DNA of 64,000 nucleotides from Acidobacteriota bacterium (GTDB lineage Bacteria > Acidobacteriota > G020349885). Shown in pieces: positions 10,033 to 60,492 of this stretch. Positions within the stretch are counted from its first letter, which is position 1. Each line of letters begins with the position of its first letter. The stretch lies in the NCBI GenBank assembly GCA_020349885.1, contig CP070701.1, positions 2,084,433-2,148,432 on the forward strand, written 5' to 3'. Under the pieces are notes generated by a model. It was given only the letters and a program-made list of their open reading frames with translations. It searched no databases and was not told the origin of the DNA. The position numbers and the translations under genes are program-made.

Positions 10033-10061
10033 GTGTCAAAAAATTTTCCTTCGCGTATAAT
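10033..10061 (+). promoter_or_regulatory. serS promoter; probable leaderless start
   Basis: TATAAT (10056-10061) with a weaker -35 GTGTCA (10033-10038) and a 17-base spacer. The serS ATG at 10070 lies 8 bases past the -10 box and has no Shine-Dalgarno sequence, so transcription should begin at or next to the start codon. Confidence 0.6.
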
Positions 10062-10069
10062 GGTTCGTT

Positions 10070-11353
10070 ATGCTCGACCGCCATTTCGTCCGGGAAAACC
10101 CGGACGTCGTCAAGAAAAAATTCGCAGAGCGCGGCCTCCCCCCGGCGAGCGTGGACGCCCACCTGGCGCTCGACGAGAAGCGCCGCCGGATGCTCCAGAA
10201 GGTGGAGGAGCTCAAGCACCTCAAGAACACCGTCTCCAGGGAGATCGGCGAGCTCAAGAAGAAGGGGGAGGACGCCGAGGAGAAGGTCGCGGAGATGCGC
10301 CGCGTGGGCGACGACATCGCCGGGATGGAGGAGGGCGTGGCGGCGGTGGACGGGGAGATGCTGAAGATCGAGCTCGCCATGCCCAACCTCCAGGACGATA
10401 GCGTTCCCGTCGGAACGACGAGCGAGAACAACGCCGAGATTCGCAAGTGGGGGGAGCCGCCGGAATTCTCGTTCGAGCCCCGGCCCCACTGGGAGGTCGG
10501 CGAGGGGCTGGGGATTCTGGATTTCGAGCGCGCGGCCAAGATCGCGGGGGCGCGCTTCGCCCTGCTGCGCGGAGCGGGGGCGCGGATGGAGCGCGCGCTC
10601 ATCGACTTCATGCTCGACATACACACGCGCGAGCACGGCTACGAGGAGGTTCTTCCGCCCTTCATGGTCAACCGCGAGAGCCTCATAGGCACGGGGCAGC
10701 TTCCGAAGTTTGAGCGTGACCTCTTCGGCGTGCACGATTCCGGCTACTACCTCGTCCCCACGGCCGAGGTGCCCGTGACGAACATCCACCGCGGCGAGAT
10801 CCTCGACGAGGCGGCGCTTCCCGTCAAGTACGCCGCCTACACGCCGTGCTTCCGAAGCGAGGCCGGCTCCTACGGCAAGGACACGCGCGGCTACATCCGC
10901 CAGCACCAGTTCAACAAGGTCGAGCTCGTGAAACTTGCGACGCCCGAGACCTCCTTCGACGAGCTCGAATCGCTCACCGAAAACGCCGAGGAGATCCTGA
11001 AGCGCCTTCGCCTGCACTACCGCATCGTCTCGCTCTGCTCGGGCGACCTGGGCTTCGCCTCGGCGAAGACCTACGACCTCGAGGTGTGGCTTCCCTCGGA
11101 GAAGGGCTACAAGGAGATTTCCTCCTGCTCCAATTTCACGGACTTCCAGGCGCGCCGCGCCGCCCTCCGCTACCGCCCAGGCGCGGGCAAGTCGAAGGCG
11201 CGCTTCGTGCACACCCTCAACGGCTCGGGCCTCGCCGTGGGCCGGACGCTCGTCGCCGTACTGGAGCAGTGCCAGAACGAGGACGGCACCGTCACGGTTC
11301 CCGGGGCGCTGCGCCCCTACATGGACGGGCTGGAGCGCGTCGAGCGGGCATGA
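10070..11353 (+). CDS. serS: Seryl-tRNA synthetase
   Basis: 427 residues, full length. The first 100 residues form the long antiparallel coiled coil that grips the tRNA-Ser variable arm (from [20 protein letters not shown]). The class II core follows: motif 2 is [20 protein letters not shown] and motif 3 is [17 protein letters not shown]. It charges tRNA-Ser, and also tRNA-Sec, the first step toward the selenocysteine used by the gene at 302. The stop overlaps the start of the next gene (ATGA). The start codon seems leaderless. Confidence 0.97.
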
Positions 11354-54666: not shown

Positions 54667-57018
54667 CTATCCTTTACGTATGGTCACCCGCCACCTGTCT
54701 CCTTCCTCTTTCACGGACAGCACTTGGTGCCCGTCTTTCTCGGCGCTTGGCGGGACGTTGCGAGCGCCATCGCCGTCAAGGAAAACCGCGAGCACCTGGC
54801 CCTTCGCCATCTGGCCGAGCAGAAGCTTGGTTTTGACGTAGTTGAGCGGGCAGGTGACGCCTTGCAAGTTTTCCTCCCGGTCGACCTTTGCCTCTTCGCT
54901 TTTTACGCCGGGGGCGCTGTTGTCTGGCGCTTCCTTTTCCGCTTGCGAGGCGGGCGCATCGTCCGCGGATCTGAAACGAAGGGAGGGGTCCAGGCTGTCG
55001 TACAGCTTCTGCACCGCGTCGACCATCGCGGACACGTCGCCCGCGTCCGCGCGAAACGTTTTTTCTGGATTGCCAGACGACGCGCTGCTCAGCCCCCCCT
55101 CGGTCAGCTTGCGGAAAGTCTCCTTGACGAGCCCCGTATCAATAAAATGCTTGGTGAAAAGCTCGAGGGCTTCGGCGTCGTCTCCGGCTTCCTCTCCCTG
55201 CGTGACCAACAGGGCGCGAGAGGCGAGGACGGTGGCCGCGAAGAGTCTCCCCTGTTCGACGGCCTCGCGGGCGCTCGCGAGGTCCACCTCGATCAGATCG
55301 AACACCCCTGCGCCGCACTCGCCCGGTCCCCGACCCGCAAGGGAGAACAGCTCCTCTGAGCCCCAGTCGAAATAGCAGTTCTTGTCCTCCTCGAAGGACG
55401 GAATGCGGCCGTGCTTACGGGCGAGTTGCGCGGCGAGCTCCCGGCCGCCGTCTTCGAGGAAAACGTCGAAGTCGGGGCACTGGGGCGCTTCCGCGAAGGC
55501 GTGCAGGAATTCGGAGATGAAAGCCGGAACGTTCCGCGCCGGAACGACGTCTTTTCCCCGGGCGAGCCTGGTAATTCCCTCGCCCACCCTGCCCCCGAGC
55601 TGGACCACGTAGCAGGGCACGAGCCTTCCGTCGACGCGGCGCGCCGCTCCGAAAAGCCCTATCTGTCCTACGGGGTGGCGGCCGCAGGCGTTGGGGCAGC
55701 CGCTGACGTGGAGATTGAACTCACCGAGCTTGTCAAGAGAAAGCCCGCTATGTGTCAGCTCGTCAATGACGGCGCAGGAAAGCCCCCGGGAAAGGCAGAT
55801 GCCCAGCCTGCAGGTGGATGCCCCGGTGCAGGCGATAGCGTTGCGCGCAATCGGAGAAAAAGTCTCCGCGAGCCCAAGCTCCCCGAGCTTCCTGTGCAGC
55901 GCGGCAAGCTCCCTGTCATGAACGGAGCGGAGCACCAGGTTCTGCAACTGAGTGGTTCTGGCTATGCCCTCCCCGTGCGCCTCGACGACGTCGGCCAGCT
56001 TCTCGAACGTCCCCGCGTCAATGTCCCCCAGGACGAGAGGTATGTGGACAAGGCGGTACCCGCTCTGCTTCTGGGCCGTGGTGTTCTTCTCGCGCCACTC
56101 ACGGAAGCCCTCCTCAGGCGGCTCCCCGTTTTTGGGGACGGATGTGCCTGGGCCCGGAAGGTCGCGCACGTGCAGGGGAGGGAGGCCCTTTTGGCGCAGC
56201 TTCGAGAGCTCGTCCTCGTACAGGGTGCGAAAGCGCTCCGGGCCCATCCGCTCGACCAGGAACCGCAGCCGCGCCTTGTGCTTGTTCTTTCGGTCACCGT
56301 GCTTGTCGAAGACGCGCTTGACCGCCTCGGCAACGAAGTGGGCATCCTGCGCGGGCACGAACTCCTCTAAGAGGTCGGCGACACGACTTTTTGCGCCCAT
56401 GCCGCCTCCCACGTAAACGGCGAACCCCGGTTCGCCGTCTTGTTTTTTCGCGATGAACCCCACGTCGCTCAGCGTGGCGCCGGCGCAATCCTCGGCGCAT
56501 CCCGAGAAAGCGATTTTGTACTTGCGCGGGAGCCGGTAGCTCAGCGGATCGTCAAGCAGAAACTCCGTCACCGCGATGGAATACGGCGTCACGTCGAAGG
56601 CCTCCTTGGGGCAGACACCGGAGTCGTAGCAGGCCGTGATGTTGCGGACGGTGTTTCCGCCTCCGCCCTTTGTCGAGAGTCCCGCGCCGTAGAGCTTCAC
56701 CAGGGCGGGGTGGATTCCCTCGAGCTCCACATTATGAACTTGAATGTCCTGGCGGGTGGTGACGTGGAGGACGCCGCTGCCGTACTTTCGGGACACGCCG
56801 GCCAGGGTCCGCATCTGGTGTGGCAGAACGCCGCCGGCGGGAAAGCGTACCCTCAACATGAATGTTCCGTCTTTCCGCTGCTCGTACACGCCGAGGGGAA
56901 CGCGGAAGGAGCGGAACTCGGCGGCGGAAATTTCCCCTTTCCCGAACCGCTCCACGTTCTCCCTGAATTTATTCAGATCATCCTCGAGGGAATCCGGCAG
57001 CTTAAATATTGTTTGCAT
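54667..57018 (-). CDS. Ferredoxin-type sulfite reductase fused to a TusA domain
   Basis: 783 residues. Residues 1-540 are a complete siroheme/4Fe-4S sulfite or nitrite reductase (two NIR_SIR halves). The cluster ligands are C397 and C403 (C-x5-C in CTGASTC) and C441 and C445 (C-x3-C in CPNAC). Residues about 545-680 are a helical domain. Residues 718-783 are a TusA/SirA-like sulfur carrier domain with C723-P724 (VTCPLNYVKTKLLL). The operon context (cysH, sat, cysK) shows sulfite is the substrate. The TusA part may carry the sulfide as a persulfide or thiol-bound form to the synthase. Last gene of the operon. Confidence 0.9.
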   Translation of the reverse strand: MQTIFKLPDSLEDDLNKFRENVERFGKGEISAAEFRSFRVPLGVYEQRKDGTFMLRVRFPAGGVLPHQMRTLAGVSRKYGSGVLHVTTRQDIQVHNVELEGIHPALVKLYGAGLSTKGGGGNTVRNITACYDSGVCPKEAFDVTPYSIAVTEFLLDDPLSYRLPRKYKIAFSGCAEDCAGATLSDVGFIAKKQDGEPGFAVYVGGGMGAKSRVADLLEEFVPAQDAHFVAEAVKRVFDKHGDRKNKHKARLRFLVERMGPERFRTLYEDELSKLRQKGLPPLHVRDLPGPGTSVPKNGEPPEEGFREWREKNTTAQKQSGYRLVHIPLVLGDIDAGTFEKLADVVEAHGEGIARTTQLQNLVLRSVHDRELAALHRKLGELGLAETFSPIARNAIACTGASTCRLGICLSRGLSCAVIDELTHSGLSLDKLGEFNLHVSGCPNACGRHPVGQIGLFGAARRVDGRLVPCYVVQLGGRVGEGITRLARGKDVVPARNVPAFISEFLHAFAEAPQCPDFDVFLEDGGRELAAQLARKHGRIPSFEEDKNCYFDWGSEELFSLAGRGPGECGAGVFDLIEVDLASAREAVEQGRLFAATVLASRALLVTQGEEAGDDAEALELFTKHFIDTGLVKETFRKLTEGGLSSASSGNPEKTFRADAGDVSAMVDAVQKLYDSLDPSLRFRSADDAPASQAEKEAPDNSAPGVKSEEAKVDREENLQGVTCPLNYVKTKLLLGQMAKGQVLAVFLDGDGARNVPPSAEKDGHQVLSVKEEGDRWRVTIRKG

Positions 57019-57074: not shown

Positions 57075-58070
57075 TTATGCCTTCGGCTTGCCTTCCTCTC
57101 CTAGAAAGTCCACGAAAAACGAGCTGTACTTGAGCCCGCTGTCCGGAGAGACGGCCACGGCCACCCCTTCCCTGTTCTTTCCGTACTCAGCGGCGGCGTG
57201 CACGATAGCCCCGGTGGACGGCCCCACGATCAGTCCTTCCTCCCGGAAGAGGCGCTTGGTCATGGCGTAGGCCGGGTCGTCGTCCACGCGAACTACCTGG
57301 TCGACGACGCTGCGGTCGAAAATTCCCGGCTCCTTCGATTCCTCCAAGTTTTTCAACCCCGAGACTCTATGCCCCTGCTGGGGCTCGACAGCGATTACTT
57401 CGATGTCCGGGTTTTTTTCTTTGAGGTACCGCCCGACGCCGGTAATCGTGCCGCAGGTGCCGAGACCCGCAAAGAAGTAGCGCACCGCTCCTTCGGTTTG
57501 ATTCCATATCTCGGGGCCCGTGGTCTCGTAGTGAGCCTTCACGTTGTCGGGATTCTCGTACTGATTGGGCATCGCGTATTGCCCCTTGTGGGCTTCGCCC
57601 TTCACGAAGGAGTGGGCGAGCGCAATGGCCCCGTCCTTCGGGTGGTCGGTGGGACACAGGTCATCCGGCGTGGGCCAGACCTCGGCCCCCAGCATGCGGA
57701 GGAGCACTTTCTTCTCCTCCGGCTCCCCCTCGGGGATCGTCGCCGTGAACTTCTTTTTCATGAGTGCGGCCAAGGCGGCCAGGGCTATGCCGGTGTTGCC
57801 GGAAGTGGGCTCTACCAGCTTCTTCCCCTCCAGCTCTCCCCGCTCCTCCATGCCCTTGAGCAAATAGAGGGCGGGGCGGTCCTTGATGGACCCGAACGGA
57901 TTGAACCATTCCAGCTTCAGGTGGAGCTCGAAACCGCCCTGGGGAATTACCCTGCCTATCTTCACGATGGGGGTGGGGTTGTCGGGGCCGGCTATCAGCT
58001 CCCGTATATCTCCGAACCGTCGAAGGGTGGTATTAGCACCGAGCGTTTTCTTACCGTCTTTGTCTGCCAT
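57075..58070 (-). CDS. cysK: Cysteine synthase (O-acetylserine sulfhydrylase family)
   Basis: 331 residues of the fold type II PLP family. The PLP lysine is K63 in NPFGSIKDRPA; the substrate loop is EPTSGNTGIALA; GLGTCGTITGVGRYLKE is the phosphate loop. EGLIVGPSTGAIVHAA carries the C-terminal Ser contact. It forms cysteine from an activated serine and sulfide. The sequence departs somewhat from canonical CysK/CysM (a longer N-terminus and MPNQYENPDN), so O-phosphoserine or a carrier-bound sulfide is possible. It is 102 bases from sat and 56 from sir. Confidence 0.88.
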   Translation of the reverse strand: MADKDGKKTLGANTTLRRFGDIRELIAGPDNPTPIVKIGRVIPQGGFELHLKLEWFNPFGSIKDRPALYLLKGMEERGELEGKKLVEPTSGNTGIALAALAALMKKKFTATIPEGEPEEKKVLLRMLGAEVWPTPDDLCPTDHPKDGAIALAHSFVKGEAHKGQYAMPNQYENPDNVKAHYETTGPEIWNQTEGAVRYFFAGLGTCGTITGVGRYLKEKNPDIEVIAVEPQQGHRVSGLKNLEESKEPGIFDRSVVDQVVRVDDDPAYAMTKRLFREEGLIVGPSTGAIVHAAAEYGKNREGVAVAVSPDSGLKYSSFFVDFLGEEGKPKA

Positions 58071-58171: not shown

Positions 58172-59344
58172 TTATCCCTGCCAGTTGCGCTGTGCCCCGT
58201 ACGTCCCTCGCAGGACCTCCGCCACCTCGGGGCGGGTGAACTCCGCAGGCAGCTCCTCTCCCCGCGACAGCATCTCGCGCACGCGTGTTCCGCTGAGGCG
58301 GAGCCACTCGGACTCGCCGTGCGGGCAGGTCCTGGCGGAGATGACGCCCCCGCACGCGCGGCAGTAGAACGTGTGGTCGAAAAAGAGCGGCGTGACGCCG
58401 ATCTCGTCCGGAGAAAACTCGTCGAAGATGCGGTGGGCCGCGAAGGGATCGTAAAAGCTGCCCACGCCCGCGTGGTCGCGCCCGACGATGAAGTGGGTGC
58501 AGCCGAAGTTCTTGCGCGCCAGGGCGTGGAAGATGGCCTCGCGCGGGCCGGCGTAGCGCATCGCGGCCACGAACGCCCCGAGCACCACGCGCCCCTTCGG
58601 ATAGTAGCCCTCGATGAGCGCGCGGTAGCAGGCGAGGCGAACCTCGGCCGGGATGTCGTCGCTTTTGGTCTCGCCCACGAGCGGGTGCAGGAAGAGGCCG
58701 TCCGTGATTTCAAGCGCGCACTTGTGGATGTACTCGTGGGCCCGGTGGACGGGGTTGCGCGTCTGGAAGCCCACGACGCGCCGCCAGCCGAGCTCCTCGA
58801 AGCGCCCGCGCGCCTCGGCGGGCGTGAAGGCGCAGTCGTCGAACGCGCCGTGCGGAATTTTTTCGAAAAGCCGCACGCGGCCCCCGAGATAGAAATCCTT
58901 CTGCGCGTAGAGGCGCTTGACGCCCGGGTGACGCTCGTCGCGGGTGCCGTAAGCTTTCTCGGCCTCACGCTTCTTGTCGTAGGGAAAGCGGCACCCGGCT
59001 TCGAGCATGCCTAAAATCTTTCCCTCGTCGTCCGCGAGCGCGACCGGCTCGCCCGGTTCGACGGCGGACGCCTCCTGCTCCGTCGCGGCGAGGGCCACGG
59101 GCAGCGTCCACGGGAGGCCGCTTGCGAGGCGCATCGTTTCGAGGACGCTCTCGTAGTCCTCCGGCCCCATGAATCCTTCCAGGGGGCTGAGTCCGCCTAT
59201 GGCGATTAGTTCAAGGTCGCTTTTTTCACGGGGCGTGAGCCGCAGGCGCGGGGCGTTCTTCAGGACGCTTTCCCACTTGCGCCTCCCGTGAGGCTTCACC
59301 TCGCGGTTGACGAGCCGGCCGCCGTGGGGTTTGGAAAGTGACAT
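58172..59344 (-). CDS. sat: Sulfate adenylyltransferase
   Basis: 390 residues of the monomeric Sat/ATPS type. Motifs are GFQTRNPVHRAHEYIH (the HxxH-like adenylate loop) and FIVGRDHAGVGSFYDP. Also seen are ISGTRVREMLSRGE-type residues near the end and a four-residue zinc loop CRACGGVISARTCPHG. It makes APS from sulfate and ATP. No CysC kinase domain is fused and no cysC lies nearby, so APS goes straight to CysH. Confidence 0.95.
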   Translation of the reverse strand: MSLSKPHGGRLVNREVKPHGRRKWESVLKNAPRLRLTPREKSDLELIAIGGLSPLEGFMGPEDYESVLETMRLASGLPWTLPVALAATEQEASAVEPGEPVALADDEGKILGMLEAGCRFPYDKKREAEKAYGTRDERHPGVKRLYAQKDFYLGGRVRLFEKIPHGAFDDCAFTPAEARGRFEELGWRRVVGFQTRNPVHRAHEYIHKCALEITDGLFLHPLVGETKSDDIPAEVRLACYRALIEGYYPKGRVVLGAFVAAMRYAGPREAIFHALARKNFGCTHFIVGRDHAGVGSFYDPFAAHRIFDEFSPDEIGVTPLFFDHTFYCRACGGVISARTCPHGESEWLRLSGTRVREMLSRGEELPAEFTRPEVAEVLRGTYGAQRNWQG

Positions 59345-59390: not shown

Positions 59391-60116
59391 TTATTTATGC
59401 AGTCCGCACTCCGTCTTGGCGAAGCCCGCCCATCGGCCCGAGCGGGGGTCCTCGCCCGGCTTCACGGGCCTCGTGCAGACCGAGGTGTTGCACCCGATGC
59501 TCGGGTAATCCCGGTCGTGGAGCGGGTTGTAGGGAACGTCGTGCTCACGGATGTAGTTCCAGACGTCATCGTCACGCCAGTGGGCCAGGGGATTGATCTT
59601 GATGAGGCCGAATTTCTCGTCGTTCTCGACGAGGGCGGTGTTGGCGCGCGTGGGCGCCTGCTGGCGGCGGATGCCCGTAATCCACGCGTCCTGCTCCGCG
59701 AGCGCCCGCGTGAGGGGCTCCACCTTGCGCAGGTTGCAGCACAGGGTGGGGTTGCGCTCCCAGAGCGCTTCGCCGTGTTCCTCGACCTGCTGCTCCGCGG
59801 TGAGCTTCGGCTTCATCGCCACGGGCGTTATGCCGTAGCGCTCGACGAGGCGGTCGCGCGTCTCGAGGGTTTCCTTGAAGTGAAGCTGCGTGTCCAGGTA
59901 AAAGACGCGCACCTTCTTGTTGACGCGGGAAATCATGTCGAAGAGCACCACGTCCTCGGCCCCGAAGCTGCACGCCAGGGTGATTTTGGGAAAGTAGCGC
60001 TCGACGGCCCACCGCAGAATCGCGAGCGTCTGCTCGGCCTCGAACGTCCGGTGCAGTATTGCCGGGTCTTTTTGCCCGTTCGTTTGCGCCTTTAGAAACG
60101 TTGCAAGTTGCGTCAT
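59391..60116 (-). CDS. cysH: APS reductase (CysH, 4Fe-4S type)
   Basis: 241 residues. ACSFGAEDVVLFDMI and FYLDTQLHFKETLE bind the nucleotide; CCNLRKVEPL has C126-C127, and a second Cys pair (C209, C214) completes the iron-sulfur ligands that mark enzymes using APS rather than PAPS. The second pair reads GCNTSVCTRPV, C-x4-C, where the usual form is C-x2-C. The active-site C-terminal motif ECGLH is present (C237). It makes sulfite from APS with thioredoxin. First gene of the operon. GGAGGT lies 9 bases before the ATG, just after an attenuator-like terminator. Confidence 0.93.
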   Translation of the reverse strand: MTQLATFLKAQTNGQKDPAILHRTFEAEQTLAILRWAVERYFPKITLACSFGAEDVVLFDMISRVNKKVRVFYLDTQLHFKETLETRDRLVERYGITPVAMKPKLTAEQQVEEHGEALWERNPTLCCNLRKVEPLTRALAEQDAWITGIRRQQAPTRANTALVENDEKFGLIKINPLAHWRDDDVWNYIREHDVPYNPLHDRDYPSIGCNTSVCTRPVKPGEDPRSGRWAGFAKTECGLHK

Positions 60117-60141
60117 CGTTTTTTTACCTCCGTTTAAGCTG

Positions 60142-60184
60142 AAAAACCCACCGCTCCAACGCTGGTGCGCTGCAGTCAGTGGGT
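60142..60184 (-). terminator. Attenuator terminator upstream of cysH
   Basis: On the minus strand ACCCACTG (60184-60177) pairs with CGGTGGGT (60153-60146) with one G-U pair; an inner stem is possible, and a run of five T follows (60146-60142). It lies between the Cys-rich leader peptide and the cysH ribosome-binding site (60131-60126). A terminator placed before the first gene of an operon implies attenuation. Its 5' arm (60183-60175) is also complementary to leader bases 60281-60274 (GTCAGGGG) with one bulged A, a candidate antiterminator. Confidence 0.75.
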
Positions 60185-60256
60185 CAAAAGCTTTGCTAAT
60201 TGTCTATACGCTAAAGGTTGTCTTGGGGCGTTACGGCTCCTTTGTCGTTTTCGGAA

Positions 60257-60331
60257 TTAGCGCCGCTCTTGTGCCCCTGACGGCAGGCACACCGCGGCGC
60301 CGCTACAGCCGCACGGGCCGGCGCAGCACAT
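60257..60331 (-). CDS. Cysteine-rich leader peptide of the cys operon
   Basis: 24 residues starting MCCAGPCGC, with Cys at codons 2, 3, 7, 9 and 15 and stop TAA (60259-60257). It lies between the operon promoter and the attenuator terminator. Five Cys codons in fifteen are far above expectation, and the peptide precedes genes for cysteine synthesis. The region after the last Cys codon (codons 17-19) can pair with the terminator's 5' arm. The start has no strong ribosome-binding site. By analogy with trp, his and leu leaders and poly-Cys upstream ORFs of Mycobacterium, slow translation at low Cys-tRNA would favour readthrough. Confidence 0.7.
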   Translation of the reverse strand: MCCAGPCGCSGAAVCLPSGAQERR

Positions 60332-60380
60332 TATCGTTGAGAAGCGCGTTCGGGCGTTCTCGGTTGCCATAACAGAACAG

Positions 60381-60407
60381 CTTATACTGATTTTCTTGCC
60401 GTGTCAA
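60381..60407 (-). promoter_or_regulatory. Promoter of the cys operon
   Basis: On the minus strand TTGACA (60407-60402) and TATAAG (60386-60381), spacer 15 bases (short). Transcription would begin near 60374 and give a leader of about 255 bases that contains the peptide and terminator. Confidence 0.6.
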
Positions 60408-60417
60408 CAGGAAAAAT

Positions 60418-60434
60418 TTCCTGAATTTCAGGAA
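60418..60434. promoter_or_regulatory. 17-bp palindrome next to the cys promoter
   Basis: TTCCTGAA-T-TTCAGGAA, perfect 8-base arms, 10 bases upstream of the -35 box of the cysH promoter. The position suits an activator or upstream repressor site. It is also 58 bases upstream of the -35 of the divergent glycosyltransferase promoter. Confidence 0.55.
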
Positions 60435-60492
60435 AAAGTCCTACGGGCTTGCCCGCCCTAACGACCTTGGGGGGCTTGCCCTGCCCGTCTCG

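Follow-up and report, generated by a model that had tools for sequence, protein, structure and literature searches.

The 64-kb window, the whole stretch of DNA that was analysed, carries on its reverse strand the operon cysH-sat-cysK-sir, whose Pfam domains indicate the formation of cysteine from sulfate. The operon follows a leader of approximately 255 nt with a promoter, a cysteine-rich open reading frame (ORF) and several hairpins (Table 1). The sulfite/nitrite reductase of the operon (54667-57018) is fused to a C-terminal TusA domain (PF01206).

Table 1. Features of the cysH leader and of the operon downstream, in window coordinates.
Feature	Position	Strand	Remarks
Promoter	60381-60407	-	TTGACA 60407-60402, TATAAG 60386-60381; read directly
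Cys leader peptide, 37 codons + stop	60257-60370	-	MATENARTRFSTIMCCAGPCGCSGAAVCLPSGAQERR; 24-codon form begins at 60331
1:2 hairpin, antiterminator protector	60259-60301	-	from the MFE fold of the complete leader
2:3 antiterminator, long imperfect hairpin	60164-60293	-	-50.7 kcal/mol
3:4 intrinsic terminator, 17 bp, then T5 (60146-60142)	60142-60185	-	-27.5 kcal/mol
cysH Shine-Dalgarno sequence, GGAGGU	60126-60131	-	GGAGG 60131-60127; can pair with ACCUUU 60218-60213 without the antiterminator
cysH, PAPS/APS reductase, first operon gene	59391-60116	-	PF01507
sat, ATP sulfurylase	58172-59344	-	PF01747, PF14306
PLP-dependent enzyme, cysteine synthase type (cysK)	57075-58070	-	PF00291; substrate judged from context
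Sulfite/nitrite reductase (sir)	54667-57018	-	PF01077, PF03460

The promoter lies where a first-pass annotation of the same DNA had placed it. Its TTGACA and TATAAG boxes are separated by 15 nt only. The pattern scan for promoters requires a spacer of 16-18 nt, and the leader promoter is therefore missing from its list. Relatives carry TTGAxx-17-TATAxx in the corresponding position. A perfect palindrome, TTTCCTGAAATTCAGGAAA (window 60417-60435, reverse strand), is located immediately 5' of the -35 box and may be an operator, or else a hairpin that has nothing to do with the switch. A role as regulon-wide operator was rejected for this palindrome, which occurs in the genome as a single exact copy.

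The cysteine-rich ORF had been described initially as a 24-codon peptide with Cys at positions 2, 3, 7, 9 and 15. All of these residues are present behind the ATG at 60331, but an in-frame ATG at 60370, approximately 3 nt past the predicted transcription start, extends the frame to 37 codons. The five Cys codons are common to both versions, starting at 60328, 60325, 60313, 60307 and 60289, and are numbered 15, 16, 20, 22 and 28 in the longer one. A TAA stop (60259-60257) terminates the frame. A near-leaderless start at ATG 60370, yielding the longer peptide, appears more likely than a start at ATG 60331, because neither ATG is preceded by a Shine-Dalgarno sequence. Another candidate leaderless gene was observed at window 10049-10072 (forward strand), where TATAAT stands 8 nt ahead of the ATG of a 427-aa ORF. 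When the leader was shuffled 20000 times with its dinucleotides kept, a short ORF with five Cys in 15 codons arose 4 times. No second cysteine leader was seen within 1.5 kb ahead of cysS in the same genome.

The leader is strongly structured (z -2.9). Its 3:4 hairpin is a terminator, as claimed in the first-pass annotation, with five T and a position ahead of the cysH ribosome-binding site; the stem comprises 17 bp and not the 8 bp described there. None of 1000 shuffles matched its energy. The 2:3 antiterminator, whose energy was likewise matched by none of 1000 shuffles (z -5.5), combines the helices GGUGUGC:GCGCACC, GUCAGGGG:CCCACUGAC, GCUAAUU:AAUUAGC and AAAGG:CCUUU. The first strand, GGUGUGC, overlies codons 27-28 of 37, and its partner GCGCACC sits in the terminator loop. 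Two pairings noted earlier as separate elements are joined in this hairpin. As noted there, GUCAGGGG (60281-60274) can pair with the terminator 5' arm, but this helix makes up no more than a part of the antiterminator. The stem between GCTAATT (60261-60255) and AATTAGC (60201-60195) does belong to the alternative fold, nested within the same single hairpin as GUCAGGGG:CCCACUGAC. Antiterminator and terminator are predicted to be mutually exclusive. The 1:2 hairpin takes in Cys codon 28 of 37 (15 of 24), and pairing of the Cys segment with the linker was significant in the window leader (p=0.005 against shuffles).

Genomes of the same phylum, beyond the window's own class, were compared. The CysH proteins closest to that of the window among the phylum genomes searched (59-63% identity) belong to a family designated f17. 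A leader peptide with 6-8 Cys was found in all eight f17 genomes examined. Seven of them have the complete region, with a peptide such as ...MVSPATCCCCCCCRPTRPTGGSGPGG... located 110-200 nt upstream of cysH; in the eighth, G214, a run of eight Cys lies at the end of a short contig. The three hairpins recur in all seven complete leaders. The Cys run pairs with the segment that follows (1:2). This same segment, CCGGCGGCAGCGGG or a close variant, can instead pair with CCCACUGCCACCGG, the 5' arm of the terminator (2:3). The 3:4 hairpin is the terminator itself, CCCACUGCC...GGCAGUGGG-U6, with U5-6 across the leaders. In an alignment of the seven sequences, pairing is preserved in 98, 93 and 99% of the cells for 1:2, 2:3 and 3:4, respectively. 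The compensatory changes anticipated in the first-pass annotation are few. Double changes affect 0, 1 and 1 pairs, including A-U to C-G in the terminator, and do not exceed shuffles in these seven sequences with their near-invariant core. Covariation is uninformative in f17 because the core bases hardly vary.

The window leader and the f17 leaders have the CCCACUG core and the logic in common. The f17 covariance model (R1) did not match the window leader, whose direct homology to the f17 leaders is accordingly no more than a possibility. Beyond f17 itself, the model gave only a single hit in a neighbouring family and two marginal hits. A match with an E value of 8e-11 was observed at L231:1501-1627 (genome G176), upstream of a cupredoxin-like ORF and without a Cys run. 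This sequence may represent a decayed or re-used attenuator.

A survey covered 80 loci around cysH from the window's phylum. The cysH strand carried 44, 22 and 12 short ORFs having 4, 5 and 6 or more Cys, respectively, in 8 residues, and the opposite strand 12, 2 and 0, while W, H, Y, F, M, N, Q and K showed no comparable excess on the cysH strand of these loci. Of the 80 loci, 36 have at least one Cys-rich ORF in the orientation of cysH; many relatives have none near cysH. Strong U-tailed terminators were sought within 135 nt 3' of each ORF. On the cysH strand they follow 20 of the 44 Cys-rich ORFs, usually 53-81 nt past the stop codon, as opposed to 11 of 1500 Cys-poor short ORFs (0.7%). On the opposite strand, the numbers are 0 of 1500 Cys-poor and 1 of 12 Cys-rich ORFs. 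The 20 terminator-linked ORFs span ten families (f10, f17, f21, f23, f38, f43, f45, f59, f60, f83). The genes next to the Cys leaders are cysH, cysD, sulfite reductase or tetrapyrrole methylase, cysD being assigned from PF01507 and position. Pairing of the leader with the terminator 5' arm was compared with shuffles in 27 cases, window included, and 17 of them reached p<=0.05; related genomes among these cases are not independent.

The same arrangement occurs at five of eight loci from named Acidobacteria (L040, L043, L045, L046, L047), and the sulfite reductase of genome G083 is 80% identical to its counterpart in a named Acidobacteriaceae genome. By sequence, the surveyed phylum is probably Acidobacteriota. 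At L068, L086 and L088, which are actinobacterial and contain Cys runs, no terminator was present. In Eremiobacterota, Cys-rich short ORFs (e.g. MQYVLCCCPCRCFGDSVGPA) were observed ahead of cysH at L062 and L102; at L102, no strong terminator was found within 135 nt after the ORF.

The conservation in relatives, on which the first-pass annotation had made its reading depend, was found: Cys-rich peptides and terminators are kept upstream of sulfate-assimilation genes, strongly in f17 and in at least ten families. Together with the leader-terminator pairing above shuffles, this supports the cysteine attenuator that had been proposed. Chance, in the form of an unregulated terminator beside a Cys-rich frame that GC-rich DNA happened to produce, is a highly improbable explanation. 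Such frames do arise, as the 64-kb window holds two further short ORFs with five Cys in 15 codons, and the single terminator behind an opposite-strand Cys-rich ORF points the same way; however, terminator, antiterminator and cysteine operon co-occur here, and the combination recurs in relatives. A different sensor acting on the terminator hairpin, be it a riboswitch of unknown type, a tRNA sensed in the T-box manner or an RNA-binding protein, with the Cys-rich ORF a coincidence, would suit the length and the high degree of structure of the leader. An Rfam search yielded no family at threshold, T-box and SAM riboswitch included, in the window leader or nine relatives, and the feature recurring across the phylum is the Cys codons and not an RNA aptamer, which makes such a sensor very unlikely.

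The switch was modelled by folding only that part of the leader which the ribosome leaves uncovered at each position. Before segment 4 is made, the antiterminator forms with a probability of 0.99 when the ribosome is stalled at Cys 15, 16, 20 or 22 of 37. The probability drops to just 0.37 for a ribosome held at the fifth one (28), and with the ribosome at the stop codon it is 0. At equilibrium with the full terminator present, the terminator prevails in almost every case, even with a stalled ribosome (P 0.79-1.0). This is usual for attenuators. The switch would therefore have to be decided kinetically, during transcription. The antiterminator is also the first to form in the model without any ribosome, so that basal termination would depend on earlier formation of the 1:2 hairpin.

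It is proposed that RNA polymerase transcribes the leader while a ribosome trails on the Cys-rich ORF. With ample Cys-tRNA, the ribosome would reach the stop codon and cover the 5' arm of the antiterminator. The terminator could then fold and halt transcription ahead of cysH. With scarce Cys-tRNA, the ribosome would stall within the cluster of Cys codons, leaving the antiterminator free to form, and the polymerase would continue into the operon. The leader is thus very probably a classical ribosome-mediated transcription attenuator, which senses charged tRNA-Cys and controls cysH-sat-cysK-sir. The ORF, the terminator, the mutually exclusive structures and the recurrence of the arrangement in relatives are borne out by the sequences; translation of the ORF, stalling, the kinetic choice of fold and the response to cysteine are inferred.

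The same RNA offers a translational route. With the ribosome at the stop codon, ACCUUU (60218-60213) pairs with the cysH Shine-Dalgarno sequence with a modelled probability of 0.45-0.69, which falls to 0 when the antiterminator is forced; in the antiterminator, ACCUUU is occupied by AAAGG. The Cys-rich ORF might accordingly govern cysH translation, stalling rearranging the leader and exposing the Shine-Dalgarno sequence while the terminator is incidental. A precedent exists in mycobacteria, for which a leaderless ORF with translational attenuation is reported (as cited in PMC9031893 and PMC13236596). This explanation is improbable as the sole mechanism: strong terminators follow Cys-rich ORFs of the phylum far more often than other short ORFs, the leader pairs with the terminators, and with the antiterminator forced the cysH Shine-Dalgarno sequence is just partly open in the model. 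Translational control may be an extra layer rather than an alternative, and masking by ACCUUU possibly adds such a second layer to the transcription attenuator.

The leader thereby supplies a candidate cysteine sensor for sulfur assimilation in a phylum whose members abound in soil and for the most part have yet to be cultured. According to a 2010 survey, hardly any of the attenuators predicted for Acidobacteria had been given a function (PMC2965389). The Cys run followed by a terminator is a signature usable for annotating sulfur regulons. Tentatively, and as something to be doubted rather than assumed, most of the phylum (probably Acidobacteriota) might sense cysteine via leader-peptide attenuation, moved among cysH, cysD, sulfite reductase and siroheme genes by operon rearrangement, the window version being leaderless and hiding the cysH ribosome-binding site to give two layers of control.

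The literature search yielded no report of this switch in Acidobacteriota nor of any Cys attenuator that uses a terminator to control sulfate assimilation; subscription journals were mostly outside its coverage. A close counterpart is uORFC-8-2 upstream of cysS in Rhodobacterales, a predicted complete Cys transcription attenuator (PMC8632094). Both leaders combine an ORF with Cys codons and a terminator for transcription attenuation. In contrast to the window leader, uORFC-8-2 is alphaproteobacterial, contains two tandem Cys codons and controls a cysteinyl-tRNA synthetase; no Rfam match to it was found in the window. Cys leader peptides without terminators have been predicted for the cys operons of Mycobacterium and Propionibacterium, and a Cys leader peptide also for cbs of Bifidobacterium (PMC1262725). 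Mycobacterial polycysteine leaderless short ORFs act as cysteine-responsive attenuators (Canestrari et al., 2020, as cited in PMC9031893 and PMC13236596). The actinobacterial leaders resemble that of the window in their runs of Cys codons before cysteine genes, and leaderless initiation is possible in the window too. As far as these sources describe them, they have no intrinsic terminators and are translational or Rho-linked, whereas the window leader has a strong terminator. Actinobacteria are known for Cys leader peptides without terminators; here, a cysteine biosynthetic operon very probably has complete attenuators of the trp type.

The proposed mechanism is classical and, as far as searched, new for the sulfate-assimilation operon and the phylum. 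It draws attention by its wide occurrence in the phylum and as a clean, testable switch, not by a new principle. With the trp, his, leu, ilv, thr and phe attenuators, the window leader shares a peptide enriched in the amino acid that the operon makes, the 1:2, 2:3 and 3:4 hairpins and a terminator before the first gene. It differs from them in its amino acid, cysteine, in the control of sulfate assimilation, in its probable origin from Acidobacteriota, in a possibly leaderless ORF and in an unusually long antiterminator.
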